A DNA stretch of 64,000 nucleotides, from the NCBI GenBank assembly GCA_019694165.1, contig JAIBCL010000011.1, positions 1 through 64,000 on the forward strand, written 5' to 3'. Below are positions 15,168 to 31,067 of the stretch, piece by piece (position 1 is the first letter of the stretch; the number at the start of each line of letters is the position of its first letter). The notes below the pieces were generated by a model. The model had not been told where the DNA came from. It searched no databases and worked only from the letters and a program-made list of their open reading frames with translations. Both the position numbers and the translations under genes were made by a program. The DNA comes from Verrucomicrobiaceae bacterium. Lineage in GTDB: Bacteria; Verrucomicrobiota; Verrucomicrobiia; Verrucomicrobiales; Verrucomicrobiaceae.

Positions 15168-15220
15168 GCATGGTTGTTTGTCTGCTTGTGGGCGGAATTG
15201 CACCGTTTGGCCTTCGTCGT

Positions 15221-15463
15221 CCCCCTCACCCCAGCCCTCTCCCCTTGGGAGAGGGAGTTGAAGGCGCTGCCGCGCCAATAGTAGTCCGGGCACACCGTGA
15301 CCGGAGTATTCGAGTGGCTGCTACTCACCGCCTGCTTGAGTTTGCATATCCCACGCGATCGAACTTCGTCAGACTCCAGTCACGGAGTGACTGGACTACT
15401 TTCGCCGTCGGCGCACAGCGCCATCGTCTCCCTCTCCCACGGGGAGAGGGCTGGGGTGAGGGG
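15221..15463. repeat. MITE-like element with CCCCTCACCCCAGCCCTCTC inverted ends, copy 1
   Basis: The left arm, CCCCCTCACCCCAGCCCTCT plus CCCCTTGGGAGAGGG (15221-15255), is itself a hairpin. The right arm (15429-15463) is its inverse: CCTCTCCCACGGGGAGAGGG plus CTGGGGTGAGGGGG. The 170 bp between code nothing recognisable and hold a smaller palindrome, CCAGTCACGGAGTGACTGG (near 15376). The region 15168-15516, between ffh and the dehydrogenase gene, contains only this element. A second copy with the same ends and the same internal phrase GCGCCATCGTCTCCCTCTCC lies at 52938-53126. Small size, inverted ends, lack of coding and recurrence fit a miniature mobile element or large REP/BIME-type repeat. 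Confidence 0.75.
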
Positions 15464-15516
15464 GAGGAGTTCCGATTGGTCTCGACCGTCCGAATGAGCA
15501 AAAACTCAGCCACACG

Positions 15517-21709: not shown

Positions 21710-21720
21710 CGCATCACCTC

Positions 21721-21847
21721 GTAGAACGACCCGCCGGGTCGTCACCGTTGCCCGAGCGTCTCGCTCGGACGCGAACGGGAACTCTCGAACTTCGCCTGCG
21801 AGCGGGACGCTCGCAGAACCGGGAACGACCGGGACGGGTCGTTCTAC
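21721..21847. repeat. Palindromic intergenic element with nested hairpins
   Basis: The ends are a perfect 12-bp inverted repeat, GTAGAACGACCC (21721-21732) and GGGTCGTTCTAC (21836-21847). Inside are further hairpins, CCGAGCGTCTCGCTCGG and CTGCGAGCGGGACGCTCGCAG. It fills the gap between the convergent sulfatase and M20 peptidase genes. The size and nesting suit a small non-coding mobile repeat; it could also act as a bidirectional terminator, though no T-run was seen. Confidence 0.6.
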
Positions 21848-21855
21848 GGCACGCG

Positions 21856-22974
21856 CTACGTTGGTACGGAGGCACCGAGCTTCCTCAAAACGAACCGCTC
21901 GCAGATGCGGTAGTACAACTCCATCGACTGCATGTCGATCCACTCATCGACGCCGTGCAGATTGCCGACGAGCGGGCGCGAGAGGATGACGGGGATGCCG
22001 TGCTTTTCAATGAAGCGTGCGTCACTGCCGGCGGAAGCGCGCACGAGGCGGACGGGCTCGCCGGTGAGTTCTTCGGTGACCAGCAAGTAGAGCGGATCGG
22101 GCGCGAGGTGGGTGGACTCCGCACCCATGACGTGCTCGATTTCGATGCCTTCGCCCGCGAGTTCACGCACAGTAGCGAGCAGGGACTCCTGCGTGCACGG
22201 CGGTGGAAAGCGCATGTCGATGAAGGCCGATGCCTCGCCGGGGATGCAGTTGATGGTCTCGTTCGGCGTGTTGAGGATCGTGGGCACGCAGGTGGGATAC
22301 CAGTGATCGGGCGTGTCGTTTTTGAATGCGTCAAAGTGATCGCACAGTCGCTGAATGGCGCGCGTGAGATCGAGCAGCGCATTCGGCACCAGCCAGGGAC
22401 GCGCGGCGTGGCTCTCCCGCCCATGAGCGCTGAGCCGCAGATGAAGGATGCCTTTTTCCGCGATGGTCACGTCGTGGATCGATCCCCCATCCGGCACGAT
22501 GGCGAGTCCGCAACGCAGGCCGATGTCCTCGAACAGGAACCGCACGCCGTCCGCACCGCCGCGTTCTTCGTCGGAGGTGTAGGCGAGGCCGAGCGACAGG
22601 CCGGGATGCTCGCGCTGCAGGTTGCGGAAGAGTTCGAGCATGATGGCCCCCTGCCCTTTCATGTCGCCGGAGCCGGGTCCGTAAATGCGACCATCGGCGA
22701 TGCGTGATGTGTAGGCATCAACATGCGGATGCTCGATCACGTCGAGATGCGCGACCATGAGCACGTCCGGCCGCTCGATGCCTGCGGGCATGACGGTCAT
22801 CGACCCGTAGCCGCAGCTCTCGTAGTCACGAATGCAGACGCCTTCGAGCGATTCCAGGTGATTCCGCAGAAGGGTGAAGCAGCGCGCACGATCCAGCGGA
22901 CGACTTTCCGTGCTGGGAATGGCGACGAGATCGCGCGTAAGGGTGACGAGGCGTTCGAGGAGCGGTGAGGGCAT
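21856..22974 (-). CDS. M20-family zinc aminoacylase/dipeptidase
   Basis: A 372-residue cytoplasmic metallopeptidase. The dizinc site of the ArgE/DapE/M20 group is complete: VLMVAHLDVIEHP (His76, Asp78), YGPGSGDMKGQGA (bridging Asp104), AYTSDEERGG (catalytic Glu136, ligand Glu137), and a late His in PLVGNLHGVDEW. The insertion domain for dimerisation contains SAHGRESHAARPW. It would cleave an amide or peptide bond of a small amino-acid derivative. It lies 27 bp downstream of an ATP-grasp ligase on the same strand and so is probably co-transcribed. A linked ligase and M20 hydrolase suggests making or turning over a small peptide; the substrate is unknown. Confidence 0.88.
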   Translation of the reverse strand: MPSPLLERLVTLTRDLVAIPSTESRPLDRARCFTLLRNHLESLEGVCIRDYESCGYGSMTVMPAGIERPDVLMVAHLDVIEHPHVDAYTSRIADGRIYGPGSGDMKGQGAIMLELFRNLQREHPGLSLGLAYTSDEERGGADGVRFLFEDIGLRCGLAIVPDGGSIHDVTIAEKGILHLRLSAHGRESHAARPWLVPNALLDLTRAIQRLCDHFDAFKNDTPDHWYPTCVPTILNTPNETINCIPGEASAFIDMRFPPPCTQESLLATVRELAGEGIEIEHVMGAESTHLAPDPLYLLVTEELTGEPVRLVRASAGSDARFIEKHGIPVILSRPLVGNLHGVDEWIDMQSMELYYRICERFVLRKLGASVPT

Positions 22975-23001
22975 GGTGTTTGGAAAAGCATTCGCATTGG
23001 A

Positions 23002-24405
23002 TCAATCGCGCACATACTCCCAATCGATCGGCAGGTCGCGCTCCGCGTGAAGCAGCATCTCATGGCACTCGGCTGTGGTGGGCGCGATGCAGAGGAACTG
23101 GCCTTTTTCCACGCGGCCCGACTCATTCAAGATGACGTTCACTGGCAGCACGCCGCGCTGCTTGCCCGGATGAAACAGATCGCTGTGGTGATCCAGCAGA
23201 CGAAGAACGGTGCGTGCCGACACCGGCTTCGCGAGCTTCAGATTCCGCATCAGCCACGCACCGCGCGGCTGGAAGTGACGGGCGAGCACCGACGGATACG
23301 TCGCGCCGGTGAGCCGCGCATTGATCTCGCAAACATACGCGCGATACGCGCCTGGCTCCGCGAGCGCCGTCACGAGGAAGTCCGCGCTCGCGGTGCCTCG
23401 GTAGCCCTGATCATGCAGCCACTGGCCCGCCACGCCCGCCTGCCGGAACAGCTCCTCCATCAGCCCCGGATGCTCGTCGAGATACGGCGGCGGCGATTCA
23501 TTTCCTTGGTGCACGCTCTCGTGACTGAGGATCTGCTCCGTCAGGTCGTAGAGATACACGGCTTCGTCGTCGAGGAACATCTGCACGCTCGGACTGAACA
23601 CACGCGCGACACCGTGCCGCCCCTTCTCCACCCAGCCCTGCACCATCGCCGGCCCTTCGTGAAAAAACGATTCCGGCACCGCGATGTGCGCGTCATCAAC
23701 TGATGCCTTCATCAAGCCGACGCCCGAGGCGCCGATCTGCGACTTCACCACCGCATGTCGAAATCCGCGCGCGGCCAGCGATGCGAGGCGACGCGGCACT
23801 TCGGATGGCGAGTCGGCGAGTTCCGTGTCGAACACCGGCAGCCCCGCCGTTTCGAGGTGAGCGTGCAGCAGATACTTGTTGTTCCCGCGGCGGCTGCCCT
23901 CGCTTGTGGAAAGCGCGCGCTTGCCGAGCGCGGCGGCGATTTGCTCCAAAATGGGATCGGTGACAAAACCGTCCACGAACGGCGCCTCGTGCGCACGCAG
24001 CTTGTCAATGATTCCATGTCCCGGAGCCACGCCCGACTGAATTGAGCGGCCAATCTCGAGGTAGTCGCCATGCGGCAGCACATGAACCTGCGGCAGCTTC
24101 AAGCCGAGATCGCTCTCGAAGTAGCGGCACAGCGCCTCATCCGGCGGCACTTCGAGCACCGCCACATTTTTTCCGCCGCGAAAGAGCAGCCCCATGATCG
24201 GCACCACGCGCGCACCGTAGCATTCCGGCCGCATCACCTCCCGCGCGAGCGCCGCGATCTGCCGCTCATTGCCAAAAAACATGCCGAGCAGATTGGCGAA
24301 AAAGATGGCCTGCCGGTCCTGCCAGAGCCGCGGCGTGTAGCCCTGTGTCTGGATCACCAGCGGTCCGCCAGGCAGCGTGATGTGGGACGCCATGGTTTGA
24401 TTCAT
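23002..24405 (-). CDS. ATP-grasp carboxylate-amine/peptide ligase
   Basis: A 467-residue protein with an ATP-grasp fold in its second half. Visible elements are GNNKYLLHAHLETAGLPVFD at the start of the nucleotide domain, FRHAVVKSQIGASGVGLM (Lys and Gly-rich ATP loop), GPAMVQGWVEKG, and YVCEINARLTGATYPSVLAR, where the E-I-N-x-R supplies metal ligands. The first 200 residues resemble the pre-ATP-grasp region of PGM1-type peptide ligases (FFANLLGMFFGNERQI, GARVVPIMGLLF). The open frame extends 62 codons further to 24591, but that stretch is unlike a domain, so ATG 24405 is preferred. The M20 peptidase follows after 27 bp. Product and substrates are unknown. Confidence 0.8.
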   Translation of the reverse strand: MNQTMASHITLPGGPLVIQTQGYTPRLWQDRQAIFFANLLGMFFGNERQIAALAREVMRPECYGARVVPIMGLLFRGGKNVAVLEVPPDEALCRYFESDLGLKLPQVHVLPHGDYLEIGRSIQSGVAPGHGIIDKLRAHEAPFVDGFVTDPILEQIAAALGKRALSTSEGSRRGNNKYLLHAHLETAGLPVFDTELADSPSEVPRRLASLAARGFRHAVVKSQIGASGVGLMKASVDDAHIAVPESFFHEGPAMVQGWVEKGRHGVARVFSPSVQMFLDDEAVYLYDLTEQILSHESVHQGNESPPPYLDEHPGLMEELFRQAGVAGQWLHDQGYRGTASADFLVTALAEPGAYRAYVCEINARLTGATYPSVLARHFQPRGAWLMRNLKLAKPVSARTVLRLLDHHSDLFHPGKQRGVLPVNVILNESGRVEKGQFLCIAPTTAECHEMLLHAERDLPIDWEYVRD

Positions 24406-24654
24406 GTCACATGGGGACGGTACAGCTGGAAACTGCACGATGGTCGGAATGGAAGGGATGTCATGCGCCGCAATGATCGGAACAACGAATCCGCCCGGCT
24501 CCGCGACGCCTTGGGAATCAGAGTGCAAATATTGCGGCCTGCGCAGCACCAGCTTCCCCCTACGTCCATCGCCGGAGCGCGAAAAGTTCATCGCTAGACC
24601 GAACGGCGTATTTCACTCCTGCGAATCTGCCGGAGAATTCCGCCTGCGTCCGCA

Positions 24655-25311: not shown

Positions 25312-25640
25312 GCCATGACGAACACACCTTCGCATCACGTCAGCGCGCGTCTCCTTCATGCTGCTGACGTTGCCGCGCGAATCCTGCGCACAGTTCACCG
25401 TCGAAGCGGAACACGAAGCCGCGTCTGGTCCGCGAATGCCGGCTGGGCGAACGAACGCGCGGGCGGAGCGGACGGCCGGTCAATTCTTCGAGCGTGGCCG
25501 CAGTCAACATCACCGGCAGTACGTGCGCGAACGCCATGGCGCCTGGCACCAGATCGGATCGTGGTCTTGCCGCCTGAAAACAAACAATGCTCCCGCGCTA
25601 TTTCGAACCCCAGCCTGCCCCGCCTGAGACAGCATCCGTC
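25312..25640. other. Intergenic stretch without recognisable gene
   Basis: Short open frames exist on both strands but they overlap each other, have no ribosome sites and show no family features. I see no clear promoter, hairpin or repeat. It probably holds the promoter of the large lyase gene at 25641. Confidence 0.4.
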
Positions 25641-28600
25641 ATGAACCGCCTCCTATTCCTGTTCCTTGCCGCCGGCCTCGGCGCGGCAAACGCCGATCCC
25701 GTCAAGACCCACCCGCGGCTGCTCTTCCGTGGCGAGGAGCTTCCTTCGCTGCGCGCGCGGATGACCAATGCGAACGACGCGTGGGTCGCCTTCAAGACCG
25801 ACATCGTGGACAAGTGCCTGCGCGACTACAAGTGCAGTGCCACCTCGCACTACTCGGGGCCGCCGAACTACACATGGATTCGCGACTCCTTCACCGATGA
25901 AAACGGCACGCTGCATCTGCCGGCGGATGCCGACTGGGGAGCGTGGTCGGACCAGACCGCACGTCCGGCCTGCCCCGAAGATGATGACGGCAATGGTTCC
26001 AGCTACACGCGGGTGAACTCGGAGCAGTATGCGATGATCTTCGCGCTCATGGCGCGCCTGCTGAAGGATCAGCCGGGCCAGAGCGTACAGCGCGCGGAGT
26101 ATCTCGCTGCATCGAGGGACTGCCTCTTCCATGTGATCGATCACGCAAAGGACGGTCATCCGCCGCCGGACTCCGAGGGCCACTACCCGCCCTTCCAGCA
26201 CATTGGCTTCGCCGTGGATGATCGCAGCTTCTCGGCGGAGGCATTCGCGCTCGCGGTGGATTGGATTTACGAAGACCTCACCGCCGATGAACTCGCGAAA
26301 GTGCGCAAGACCTTCCTCATCTGGGCGGACGACTGCAATCAGCATGTCTATTTCGCGCCGACGTATCCGCACGGCACGGCGAACTCGCCCTCGCTGCTGC
26401 GCTTGAGCGATCCGTATCAGCAGCAGACGCGCGCGGAGCTGCGGCTGGCGCTCAACAATCATTACACCAATCACCTGCGCGAGATGGTGCTCTACTCTCT
26501 CGCGATGGACCCGAAGGACGACATCCCGAGCGCCACGCACAGCGACACCGCACCCGCGGGCACGCTCACCAGCCATGTCATCTCCGGCGCGCCGGACAAC
26601 TGGGTGCGCCAGCAGAGCGGCGTGCTCTTTGATGCGATGGGCGTGTGGCAGTACCTCGCCGACTACGCGCTGCGCACCGACGGAGCGGGCGGCATCTCGG
26701 TGGAAGGCTCGCAGTATGCGAGCAACGGCCTCGGCCCGATGGCGATCATGCTCGCCGGACTCAACAGCGCGGGACAGGACGACGTACAAGCCTGGGGACC
26801 GCAGGCGAATGTCTCCCGGCATCCGTTCTGGAGCCTGACGGTGCCATCCTATCTCGCGCAGCTCACGCCGATGAGCCGCGTGCCCACCGGCGTAAACCTC
26901 GGCTACCTCGGTCCGATCTACCAGCCGCCGCTCTCCGGCGACTTGGAGAACTTCCTCTACATCAACGACCAGATGATCAAGGTGCTGGCCCCGATGGCGC
27001 TCGTGGATCAACGCGCGAACGGCAACAGCGGCCCGATCATCCAGGCCGTGCGCTACATTCAGCGCAATCTCGCACAAGGCGGCCCGTCAAACTTCGCCGG
27101 CCGCATCGCCACCACAAAGGGCAGCACGGCGCTGCGGGATGCGATCTACTACTTTCTCCTCTTCGATCCCGCCGCGCCCGCTCCCGCCGACCCGCGTCCG
27201 GCGATGCAGCCGAAGACGCTTTTCTCCCAGCACACGGTGAATGGAAAACTCATGGGCATGGTGCTCGGGCGAAGCGGCTACACGGCGAGCGACACTTACT
27301 TCCACTGGCGGCTCGACTGGAACCGCATCGACCACCAACGCGGCGATTCACTCGGCTTCGGCCTGTGGAAAAATGGACTCTGGCTCACGAAGGGCATGAC
27401 CGGCTACGGCACGCTGCAAGGCTGCTCCGACTACCGGAACTCGCTCTCACTGCAAAACGGCGTGCCCACCGGCAGTCCCGTCGGAGAGGACACGACCGCC
27501 GCACATGGGTCGCAATGGGACTACAGCCCCATCGGCGATCCCGAGATCACCGCCCGCAGCACGGCGGATGGTTTTCTTTTCTTCAGCGGTGACGCGACAA
27601 ACCTCTACAATCACCAGTATCAGACGACGCTGCGCGAGATCGAGCACGCCAGCCGCAGCATCATGTGGCTGAAGCCGGATCACGTCATCGTGTATGACCG
27701 CGCGAAATCCAAGAGCGCCGGCTACTACAAAAAGTTCTTCGTCAATGTGCCGCGCGATCCCGTCATCACCGGCAATGTGGCGTGGTCGCCGGCGATGGAG
27801 GGCGCGGTGGAAAAGGGGCGCATCTTTGTCACCTCCCTGCTGCCCGCGGGTGCGAACATTCAATGGAAGACCATCAATGACGGCCAGCCGGCCGGCGGCA
27901 TCGACTCGGGCACGGGGCGTCCGTCATTCGAGGACATGTGGTCACAGATCTACGTCGCGGCACCGGGCGCACCGCAGGAAACGCGGTTCCTTCATGTGAT
28001 CCAGGGCACCGATGCCGGCGTCACAAGCGCCGATGCCGCGCAGGTGGTGACGAGCAGCGACGGCGAATTCGAAGGCGCGGTGGCCGGATCGCGATGCGTG
28101 ATTTTCCGCAAGACGCTCGGCTCGCCGCCGGCCGCGCTCAGCTACACGCATCCGGCTGGCGTGACGACGCATTACATCACGGGCTTGGCGCCATTTGCCG
28201 GATTCAATGTCGCGCAAGCCGGCACCACCGTGACGCTCACAGCCAATGGCACGCAGCGCTTCACCGACGGCGGCGGCGTGCTCGTGCTCGGCGGCAGCGA
28301 GCCGGTGAATGTGGAGATAACAACCACGGACAGCACCGGCAGCGAGAGCGGTGATGCCGTGAGCTTTCTGCTGAAGCGCAGTGGTGATGTGAGCGCGCCT
28401 CTCGATGTCACGCTGACCATCGACAGCATCCTGAGTGCCGCGAGCACAGCGGACTTCGTTTCGTTTCCAGCCGCGGTTTCGTTCGCGGCTGGCAGCGCCG
28501 CCGCCACTCTGACGCTCACGCCTGCGGATGATGCGACGTTTGAAGGAACGGAGAATCTCGTCGTGCAGATTGTGGATGGCGCGGGTTATCATGCGGCGGA

Positions 28601-31067
28601 GGTTTCGGCCAAAGCCGAAGCCACATTGACCGACAACGACGCGCCACCCGGCGGCACGTTGCAGTTTTCCGGCGCCGCCTTTTCCGTCGCGGAAAGTGCA
28701 GGCAGCGCGACGATCGCGGTCACGCGCACCGGTGGCAGCACAGGAGCCGTCAGCGTGCTAGTCTCCACCACGAACGGCACCGCCAGCGCTCCCGGCGACT
28801 ACACGAACACCAGCCAGCTCCTAGGCTGGGCAGCCGGCGACTCCGCCGTCAAAACTGTGAACGTGCCGGTCATCGACAACGCAACCTACGGCGGAAACAA
28901 AACGATCAATCTCACGCTCTCACAGCTCAGCGGTCAGGCAGGCTACGGCCCCGTCCCGACGGCCGTGCTCACCATCCTCGACAACGAACCGCCGCCGCCG
29001 GGCAGTTTCAAGCTCTCGCCGCTCTCCTCCACCGTCGCCGAAAACGGAGCCACGAGCGTCACCTTCGATATCGAACGCACCGGCGGCGACGGCGGCGCTG
29101 TCAGTGTGCAGTACGCAACCGTGAACGGCACCGCGACCGCAGGCAGCGACTTCATCGCGAAGAGCGGCACGCTGAACTGGGCGAATCTCGACGCGCACAT
29201 CGAGCACGTCACCGTGACACTCACCGACGACAGCACCTATGAAGGTGACGAGTCGTTCACCTTCGCGCTCACCAATCCAACCGGCGGCGCGGGCCTTGAC
29301 GGCGCTGCGACTGCGACAGTGAACATCACCGAAAATGATCCGCTGCCCGCCGAGTTCCACATCGGCACAGGCCAGCCCTACACCACGCTCGCCAACGTGC
29401 CGTGGCATCTCGCCGCCGCAGGAAGCACCGTTTACATCCATTATCAGGCCACGCCGTTTCCCGGAAAAATCCTCCTGCCGAACCGCGGCACCGCCACGCT
29501 GCCCATCCGTGTGATCGGCGTGAAGGGCGCGGGTGGCGAGCGGCCCGTCATCGACGGCAACAACGCCGCACCACCGCCATCGAGCACGACCTACAACAAT
29601 GAAACGAGCGGTGCATCGGAAGACAGCGGCCTCATCGTCATCGAGCGCGCCCAGGGCATGAGTTCCACCTTCAAGCCGGGCTACATCGAGATCAGGGGCC
29701 TGGAGTTGAAGAACGCGCATCCCGACTTCAGCTACACGCGCCAGACCGGCGGTGCCGCTGATGCGTGGTCAAGCGCTGCTGGTGCCATCTACTTGCGGGG
29801 CGCGGAGCATGTCACGGTGCGTGATTGCATCATCCACCATTGCGCCAATGGCATCGAGACCAATCAAGGCGGCACCGAGGAGAGGAATCTCACGCGCGAC
29901 GTGCTCATCACGCACTGCCACTTCCACTCCAACGGCAAGATCGGCAGCTACTACGGCCGCAATCTCGAAACGCAGGCCGTGGGCGTCACGCTGCAGTTTT
30001 GCCGGCTCGACGAGCCGCTCTCGGGCTCAAACGTCGAGAACGTGCGCGACCTGAGCGCAGGATTCATCGGCCGGTGCAATTACATCACCGGCGGCGGCTC
30101 GCAGTTCACTTTCGACGAGCCATACGGCGCAGTGCCGCTCATCACGGGCGACGCCAGTCATGGCATCACGCATGTGTGGGGAAATGTGCTGCGAAACTTT
30201 GGCGGCGGCTCCGGCAACGTGCTCCACTTTGGCAGCACCAACCTGCCCGGCGACCGCGTCCTGCACTTTCACCACAACACCGTGCATTGCGAGACGAGCT
30301 ACTCGCGCAATCTGCTGAACATCCATGCCGCCGGTGACAGCGCGCTCGCCACGAACAACATCGTGCGCCATGCCGGCATCACCGAGTTTTACCTCAACAG
30401 CGGCCCCGGCACAGTCACGCTCGGCAAGAACCTCCTCACGCCTGGCTACCTCAGCAACGCCGGAGCCACCGGCCTCGCGAACATCATCACGAGCGCGAGC
30501 ATCGGCTTCGCCAACGAAGCCGGCGGAGACTACCACCTGGCCGCGGGCAGCCCGGCGCTCGACGCCGCGGCGGCGCTGCCTGCCGGAGCACTGCCCGCTT
30601 TCGCACAGTACTACCATCACGGGCTCGGCGTGCTTCGTCATCGTGCGGGCGCGGCGGATGACCTTGGTGCGTTTGAATCCGTGCTGCCGGTCGATGCGTG
30701 GCTCGTCGCGCATTTTGGTCTTGATGCCGCCACGCCGTCCATCGCAGGTGATCTCGCCGACCCGGATGGCGATCAATCGGGCAATCTGCTCGAATACGCA
30801 CTGGATCACGATCCGCTCCTGCCGACCGCCCACCTTCTGCCAGGCGCGGCGAATGAGGGCGGCTACGCGACGATGAACATCGCGCGGAATGTGTCCGCCA
30901 CCGACGTGACCTTCTCCGTCGAAGTCAGCGGCGATCTTGCGACCTGGCAGAACGGACCGTCATTCACCACAGCCCTCATTGACGCGCCCGCCCAGCTCAA
31001 GGTGAGGGACAATGTCGCCGTCTCGGCTGGATCGCGGCGCTTCATCCGGTTGCGGGTTTCGCGGTAG
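25641..31067 (+). CDS. Giant secreted heparinase-like lyase with Calx-beta and beta-helix domains
   Basis: The largest protein of the window, 1808 residues. The signal peptide is NRLLFLFLAAGLGAANA. The first 870 residues begin HPRLLFRGEELPSLRARM, typical of the alpha/alpha-toroid of heparinase II/III and alginate-lyase-like enzymes, followed by a beta-sheet region (HWRLDWNRIDHQRGDSLGFG, IEHASRSIMWLKPDHVIVYD). Three Calx-beta domains follow at about 890-1233, each ending in a D-N or E-N-D turn (LTDNDAPPGG, ILDNEPPPPG, ITENDPLP). A right-handed beta-helix occupies about 1240-1650 (RDCIIHHCANGIETNQGG). The end, with NLLEYALDHDPLLP, is a common verrucomicrobial C-terminal pattern. It likely binds calcium and degrades an acidic polysaccharide outside the cell. 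ATG 25641 gives the signal peptide directly. Confidence 0.85.
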   Translation: MNRLLFLFLAAGLGAANADPVKTHPRLLFRGEELPSLRARMTNANDAWVAFKTDIVDKCLRDYKCSATSHYSGPPNYTWIRDSFTDENGTLHLPADADWGAWSDQTARPACPEDDDGNGSSYTRVNSEQYAMIFALMARLLKDQPGQSVQRAEYLAASRDCLFHVIDHAKDGHPPPDSEGHYPPFQHIGFAVDDRSFSAEAFALAVDWIYEDLTADELAKVRKTFLIWADDCNQHVYFAPTYPHGTANSPSLLRLSDPYQQQTRAELRLALNNHYTNHLREMVLYSLAMDPKDDIPSATHSDTAPAGTLTSHVISGAPDNWVRQQSGVLFDAMGVWQYLADYALRTDGAGGISVEGSQYASNGLGPMAIMLAGLNSAGQDDVQAWGPQANVSRHPFWSLTVPSYLAQLTPMSRVPTGVNLGYLGPIYQPPLSGDLENFLYINDQMIKVLAPMALVDQRANGNSGPIIQAVRYIQRNLAQGGPSNFAGRIATTKGSTALRDAIYYFLLFDPAAPAPADPRPAMQPKTLFSQHTVNGKLMGMVLGRSGYTASDTYFHWRLDWNRIDHQRGDSLGFGLWKNGLWLTKGMTGYGTLQGCSDYRNSLSLQNGVPTGSPVGEDTTAAHGSQWDYSPIGDPEITARSTADGFLFFSGDATNLYNHQYQTTLREIEHASRSIMWLKPDHVIVYDRAKSKSAGYYKKFFVNVPRDPVITGNVAWSPAMEGAVEKGRIFVTSLLPAGANIQWKTINDGQPAGGIDSGTGRPSFEDMWSQIYVAAPGAPQETRFLHVIQGTDAGVTSADAAQVVTSSDGEFEGAVAGSRCVIFRKTLGSPPAALSYTHPAGVTTHYITGLAPFAGFNVAQAGTTVTLTANGTQRFTDGGGVLVLGGSEPVNVEITTTDSTGSESGDAVSFLLKRSGDVSAPLDVTLTIDSILSAASTADFVSFPAAVSFAAGSAAATLTLTPADDATFEGTENLVVQIVDGAGYHAAEVSAKAEATLTDNDAPPGGTLQFSGAAFSVAESAGSATIAVTRTGGSTGAVSVLVSTTNGTASAPGDYTNTSQLLGWAAGDSAVKTVNVPVIDNATYGGNKTINLTLSQLSGQAGYGPVPTAVLTILDNEPPPPGSFKLSPLSSTVAENGATSVTFDIERTGGDGGAVSVQYATVNGTATAGSDFIAKSGTLNWANLDAHIEHVTVTLTDDSTYEGDESFTFALTNPTGGAGLDGAATATVNITENDPLPAEFHIGTGQPYTTLANVPWHLAAAGSTVYIHYQATPFPGKILLPNRGTATLPIRVIGVKGAGGERPVIDGNNAAPPPSSTTYNNETSGASEDSGLIVIERAQGMSSTFKPGYIEIRGLELKNAHPDFSYTRQTGGAADAWSSAAGAIYLRGAEHVTVRDCIIHHCANGIETNQGGTEERNLTRDVLITHCHFHSNGKIGSYYGRNLETQAVGVTLQFCRLDEPLSGSNVENVRDLSAGFIGRCNYITGGGSQFTFDEPYGAVPLITGDASHGITHVWGNVLRNFGGGSGNVLHFGSTNLPGDRVLHFHHNTVHCETSYSRNLLNIHAAGDSALATNNIVRHAGITEFYLNSGPGTVTLGKNLLTPGYLSNAGATGLANIITSASIGFANEAGGDYHLAAGSPALDAAAALPAGALPAFAQYYHHGLGVLRHRAGAADDLGAFESVLPVDAWLVAHFGLDAATPSIAGDLADPDGDQSGNLLEYALDHDPLLPTAHLLPGAANEGGYATMNIARNVSATDVTFSVEVSGDLATWQNGPSFTTALIDAPAQLKVRDNVAVSAGSRRFIRLRVSR

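Follow-up and report, generated by a model that had tools for sequence, protein, structure and literature searches.

A ligase and a peptidase encoded side by side

What do a peptide-ligase-like enzyme and a peptidase accomplish when they are encoded next to each other? This question is raised by two neighboring genes, for an ATP-grasp ligase and an M20 metallopeptidase, within a stretch of 64,000 nucleotides from the genome of a Verrucomicrobiaceae bacterium (hereafter, the window). A first-pass annotation had placed both genes on the same strand at a distance of 27 bp, and both open reading frames are indeed intact on the minus strand (Table 1). The longest reading frame of the ligase begins at 24591; the shorter ATG start at 24405 is backed by its relatives. 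The ligase is present as a single copy in the window's genome (G000, contig C47, 7.8 Mb assembly).

A rough NG86 comparison with one relative (L010), for which dS is near saturation, gave dN/dS values of 0.24 for the ligase and 0.14 for the M20 enzyme. Thus, both are constrained genes and not chance open reading frames. The GC content at third codon positions amounts to 0.784 and 0.788 for the pair and ranges from 0.787 to 0.811 in four neighboring genes.

Several further elements were observed in the window. The M20 gene and a sulfatase gene convergent to it flank an element with 14-bp perfect inverted ends (21720-21848), of which four further contigs of the genome carry partial copies. An inverted repeat (15217-15468) lies downstream of an ffh-like gene; its 53-nt arms show 91% complementarity and are 146 nt apart. 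Close to the pair, at 25587-31067, a protein of 1826 aa is encoded that has Calx-beta domains and weakly matches a beta-helix; it is not conserved along with the pair.

Table 1 Coordinates of the ligase and M20 genes, of selected codons in the window and of the M20 loci without an adjoining ligase.
Feature	Position	Strand	Description
ATP-grasp ligase gene	23002..24405	minus	467 aa; open reading frame, fold match, PGM1 profile match, 15 relatives
M20 metallopeptidase gene	21856..22974	minus	372 aa; Pfam domains, predicted fold, metal ligands
Intergenic gap	22975..23001	minus	27 bp; M20 downstream of ligase
Ligase codons E360 to A363	23317..23328	minus	E-x-N-x-R-x-T-G-x-T motif, aligned with PGM1
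M20 R192 codon	22399..22401	minus	Proposed specificity residue; R in 20/20 ligase-linked, A in 4/4 transglutaminase-linked
M20 R320 codon	22015..22017	minus	Proposed specificity residue; R in 19/19 ligase-linked, L/L/L/W in 4/4 transglutaminase-linked
M20 R333 codon	21976..21978	minus	Proposed specificity residue; R in 19/19 ligase-linked, S in 4/4 transglutaminase-linked
Ligase-free M20 and transglutaminase-like genes	L067 6435-9542; L068 8297-11331; L083 3301-5460; L084 598-3754

A ligase with a PGM1-type predicted fold

The ligase had been likened to PGM1-type peptide ligases from its sequence, and this resemblance is clear at the level of the predicted fold, with the sequence similarity remaining below the Pfam cut-offs. 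An AlphaFold2 model based on 7 sequences (mean pLDDT 83, pTM 0.85) showed its best fold match to PGM1 (3wvq; Z 31.4, rmsd 2.7, 386 residues, 19% identity; Z 31 for 3wvq/3wvr), followed by a Streptomyces peptide ligase (8ynd, Z 30.4) and BesA (8yi6; Z 28.6, 395 residues, 18% identity). After BesA, the ranking shows a gap down to 25.4 for the next entry and then to 22.6 for purine-pathway enzymes. The nearest solved structures are hence these three ligases and not members of a known unrelated pathway.

In the Pfam comparison, the window ligase matched PreAtp-grasp (E 7.8e-5; 23.6 bits at a cut-off of 27.5) and ATP-grasp_3 (E 0.0034), both below cut-off, while only rimK_fam, PRK06524 and MptN models, all far below cut-off, were returned by an NCBIfam search. 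Among 16 members of the ligase group, 12 match PreAtp-grasp at E values up to 1 (best 2e-7) and three match PGM1_C (best E 0.059). A profile built from the 16 members again had PGM1 (3wvq) as its top match in the PDB, with an E value of 0.0088.

The window ligase shares 45-69% identity with its 15 relatives. K177, K221, the GASG stretch at 225-228, D342, E360, N362, A363 and R364 are invariant in all 16 sequences, and with the exception of A363 we take these to be the ATP-grasp catalytic residues. E360 and N362 are presumably Mg-binding, as predicted from their role in ATP-grasp enzymes, and alignment revealed the E-x-N-x-R-x-T-G-x-T motif in both the window ligase and PGM1. Judging from the conserved residues and the structure model, the ligase is probably active and apparently works like PGM1/BesA-type enzymes, without being PGM1 itself. 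Since the solved PGM1-like ligases (17-19% identical) differ in their substrates, the fold does not fix the chemistry.

An M20 enzyme with a complete two-metal site

The M20 protein exceeds the Pfam cut-offs for both Peptidase_M20 (85.4 bits) and M20_dimer (47.7 bits). The closest solved M20 enzyme by sequence is 2rb7 (E 1.6e-31), which is also the nearest fold of a structure model based on 6 sequences (pLDDT 87.8), followed by DapE. The full dizinc site described in the first-pass annotation is borne out by the alignment of 24 M20 sequences: the two-metal ligand set (H76, D104, E137, D162 and H340), the catalytic residue E136 and D78 are constant wherever covered, with H340 absent from one truncated sequence. 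At the position of D162, the alignment shows Glu in DapE and Asp in 2rb7, and the excerpted text of PMC6271292 likewise gives Asp as a metal ligand at this position in carnosinase CN2. With Asp instead of Glu as third metal ligand, the sequence leans towards a dipeptidase-type enzyme; the exo-specificity is left unfixed by the metal-ligand rules.

Conservation and distribution of the pair

Whether the two genes are conserved together was answered clearly by their relatives. In 21/21 assessable loci from Verrucomicrobiota and Planctomycetota, the M20 gene is located directly downstream of the ligase gene on the same strand, and a separation in most relatives, which would speak against a joint function, was not seen. 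The pairing is therefore strongly supported. After deduplication, 22 ligase loci were retained (L015, L016, L019 and L042 were dropped as the same places as L009, L010, L013 and L020), and the downstream side was readable in 21 of them (16 and 5 from two sets); L021 is cut inside the ligase and its pairing is not assessable. The distance between the two genes ranges from -14 to 27 bp in 15 loci of the 16-locus set and is 438 bp in the remaining one. A reverse search with an M20 profile (E 1e-60) yielded 11 copies in 10/387 genomes, nine of which adjoin a ligase. The tenth ligase genome (G126) is missing from this list because the contig ends within its M20 gene.

When 1867 flanking ORFs (at least 40 aa, E 1e-6) were compared all against all, no other cluster was present in more than 3 of the 21 loci, and no linked gene for a transporter, a regulator or a modifying enzyme was found, nor a linked substrate. 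At two loci, an M60-like peptidase gene precedes the pair (L009 2393-5214, split; L010 10281-13100, domain-typed), together with a gene for a 199-aa protein resembling a DNA-binding regulator; neither gene recurs at other loci.

The evolutionary distances of the ligase and M20 proteins correlate with r 0.91 (190 pairs from 20 loci), a value that includes the shared ancestry of the host genomes and that was reached in 0/2000 permutations. For L069 and L072, the ligases were used solely downstream of their stops. These two Planctomycetota loci (L069 7180-8569, L072 7977-9338) carry damaged ligase genes next to an open M20 gene, the damage consisting of a TGA, in frame, in place of an otherwise invariant Trp in one case and of an apparently frame-shifted stretch holding a TGA in the other, which represents either decay or an assembly error.

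As a general trend, the pair is rare and patchy. Ligase matches were found in 7/68 genomes of the window's family (one with fragments only), in 10/387 genomes of its phylum and, with 6 strong and 8 weak matches, in 392 genomes of the phylum of the Pirellulaceae. A scan of a genome contig collection with two short peptide patterns identified at least seven ligase loci, the named relatives being Verrucomicrobiales, Prosthecobacter, Luteolibacter and one Pirellulaceae. Among the relatives with the pair, a strain of Luteolibacter marinus (L018) is in culture. The 8 weak PGM1-like matches from Planctomycetota have E values from 3.5e-6 to 2.4e-4; four of these loci (L074-L077) contain no M20 match at E 0.01, and two of these four were domain-typed with PGM1_C and an IQCH-like ATP-grasp domain. 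By their sequences, the distant proteins look like another subfamily. With regard to plasmid carriage, a tblastn search against PLSDB gave no match. A role in anti-phage defense was rejected, as PADLOC returned 0 families for the ligase, the M20 enzyme and the two transglutaminase-like proteins described below (E 0.01).

We found no description of a PGM1-like ligase/M20 peptidase pair in the open-licence full-text literature, and a description elsewhere is possible. The enzyme families are known; within the literature searched, it is the two-gene unit of ligase and M20 enzyme that appears to be new.

Loss of the pair and M20 copies without a ligase

In one genome of the family (G019, L014 8139-8380), approximately 240 bp hold an N-terminal piece of the ligase, a piece covering ligase positions ~340-363 and the C-terminal end of the M20 protein with its stop, in that order and in two reading frames. 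This remnant is best read as a scar of deletions inside the pair and hence as a loss of the unit.

Four M20 copies of the family have no adjoining ligase (G011, G010, G038 and the second copy of G017). Each of them is arranged divergently to an orthologue of one transglutaminase-like gene (Tgl1; 82-84% identity to that of G011), and a second transglutaminase-like gene is present at three of these loci and was not detected in G010. A fifth Tgl1 orthologue (G035, L120) is located 50 bp from a contig end, where the M20 gene is not assessable. The transglutaminase-like genes were rejected as regular companions of the pair in the window: a tblastn search with both gave no match there, nor in any further ligase locus of the database used. 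At E 1e-30, the window's genome yielded no Tgl1 match, and it contains five other Transglut_core matches.

For the M20 alignment and tree, 20 of the 21 ligase-linked and the four ligase-free sequences were used, leaving out L032 with an M20 truncated to 150 aa. In this 24-member tree, the ligase-free sequences form one clade with full support. Their nesting within the ligase-linked sequences follows from the midpoint drawing and from their occurrence in one family only, with the root not fixed. At six of the 372 M20 positions, a residue with at least 90% conservation among the ligase-linked sequences is missing from the four ligase-free copies, and only R192, R320 and R333 among these residues are fully invariant. 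R255, N242, H189 and all metal ligands are kept in both groups.

In Acinetobacter DapE, R192 aligns with a Tyr (HVAYP) and R320 with the Arg of SDGRF; the position of R333 is occupied by residues other than Arg in both DapE and 2rb7. According to the excerpted text of PMC13058870, HiDapE Y197 (R209 in hAcy1) binds the succinyl carboxylate, a role given for DapE only, and HiDapE R329 (hAcy1 R348) binds the amino-acid carboxylate, which the text specifies as the epsilon-carboxylate of diaminopimelate and the table words more guardedly. Via the Acinetobacter alignment, we take R192 and R320 as the probable equivalents of Y197 and R329, and R255 aligns with R258, the alpha-carboxylate clamp of HiDapE in the same excerpt. 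Because two of the partner-specific arginines align with positions that this source describes as carboxylate-binding, we propose that the substrate of the ligase-linked enzymes may carry acidic groups to either side of the amide bond that is cleaved. The changes, a single event in one clade, could mark something other than the loss of the ligase product.

A proposed make-and-break unit

The strict linkage, the correlated divergence, the scar in G019, the arginines of the ligase-linked enzymes, the intact catalytic residues and the PGM1-type fold together argue for reading the pair as a shared unit. Our preferred explanation, to which we give an even chance of being right, is a two-gene make-and-break unit, in which the ligase forms an acidic dipeptide-like amide and the M20 enzyme hydrolyzes this amide or a derivative. 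Here, the ligase would activate a carboxylate with ATP as acyl-phosphate and couple it to a second small molecule through the amino group of the latter; the resulting dipeptide-like amide would be anionic on both sides. The adjoining M20 enzyme would then hydrolyze this amide, or a modified form, and thereby free its parts. We infer that both enzymes share a substrate, that it would be acidic and dipeptide-like, and that the steps would run in this order; with regard to any role, the product might be a storage compound, a masked intermediate or a signal.

A more specific version is put forward tentatively, with the balance tilting somewhat against it. It holds that the pair in Verrucomicrobiota and Planctomycetota constitutes a so far undescribed cycle of two enzymes dedicated to an acidic dipeptide-like metabolite, that the M20 enzyme is tuned to the ligase product by the three arginines, and that one lineage, once separated from the ligase, lost all three and paired with transglutaminase-like enzymes. 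This natural change of partner by the M20 enzyme offers a cheap and direct handle on the ligase product, involving three residues and two enzymes.

An alternative that we regard as unlikely is a cycle of protection and deprotection, in which the ligase adds a removable group, the masked molecule is modified by enzymes encoded elsewhere and the M20 enzyme takes the group off again. Removable groups of this kind are exemplified by the gamma-glutamyl group of BesA, the gamma-glutamyl ligase of beta-ethynylserine biosynthesis, and by LysX/LysK, where a group is added and removed on the carrier LysW. The three solved ligases nearest to the window enzyme include BesA, such acyl groups are substrates of DapE/ArgE-type M20 enzymes, and an acidic protecting group would fit the arginine pattern. 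However, the flanks of the 21 loci show no recurrent modifying gene, D162 differs from the Glu of DapE, and LysW (TIGR01206) was not found in the window's genome (96% complete) by a search that was positive in 4/14 control genomes.

It is improbable, in our estimate, that the M20 enzyme acts upstream by trimming peptides or acyl-amino acids, the freed part of which feeds the ligase. The ligase comes first in gene order at 21/21 loci (weak evidence) and no precursor-like ORF of at least 40 aa recurs, although amino acids are released by M20-type hydrolases and graspetides offer a precedent for peptidase-supplied ATP-grasp substrates: in the excerpted text of PMC8939145, peptidases beside ATP-grasp enzymes in branches 7 and 8 are proposed substrate suppliers.

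The two genes might also be linked without sharing a substrate, for instance as an operon transferred as a whole whose two enzymes are useful independently, which would be in line with the patchy distribution (7/68 family genomes including the scar, 10/387 in the phylum). We nevertheless consider it quite improbable, since the linkage persists to about 45% identity while every other neighbor changes, and the M20 sequence changes in exactly the ligase-free clade.

Although PGM1 tops both the fold and profile matches in the PDB, a pheganomycin-like peptide modification with a precursor peptide encoded elsewhere is very improbable: no small ORF (at least 40 aa) or biosynthetic neighbor recurs within 8 kb and PGM1_C is matched by only 3/16 members.

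Comparison with known systems

The LysX/LysW/LysK system resembles the make-and-break unit proposed here in combining an ATP-grasp ligase with an M20 hydrolase that act on one amide. It differs in that the window's genome is without LysW by the TIGR01206 search and the window ligase is PGM1-like by fold, and this carrier system was rejected. The NAGGN osmolyte system, which we take to comprise a NAGGN-type synthetase and an M42 hydrolase, was also rejected: the ligase has no match to the NAGGN synthetase model in NCBIfam, and the hydrolase is an M20 enzyme by Pfam.

DapE (succinyl-diaminopimelate desuccinylase) has the M20 and dimerization domains in common with the window enzyme, and the positions of R255, R320 and H189 are conserved, but it carries Glu at the position of D162 and Tyr at that of R192. 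An assignment of the M20 protein as DapE was rejected, with the best DapE-named NCBIfam model reaching 137.6 bits against an equivalog cut-off of 381. The Desulfovibrio M20 enzyme from structural genomics, 2rb7, has the same residues at D162, R192 and R320 and differs at the R333 position.

KtmD from ketomemicin clusters is an ATP-grasp peptide ligase outside ribosomal and NRPS pathways; it is likened to the window ligase by description only, and its six-gene cluster has no peptidase listed in the excerpted text of PMC11943689. BesA (8yi6) is among the closest folds, but only 18% identical, and the window pair is without a recurrent neighbor gene. PGM1 from pheganomycin biosynthesis (3wvq/3wvr) differs from the window pair, which has an M20 partner, neither a biosynthetic cluster nor a precursor ORF (at least 40 aa) beside it and a similarity under the Pfam cut-offs, yet it is the closest fold, the best PDB profile match and the carrier of the same E-x-N-x-R-x-T-G-x-T motif. 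PGM1-like ligases are familiar from actinobacterial pathways of several genes, and a minimal unit of ligase and hydrolase that has stayed together in two phyla suggests that a small molecule is cycled outside the gene clusters of secondary metabolism.
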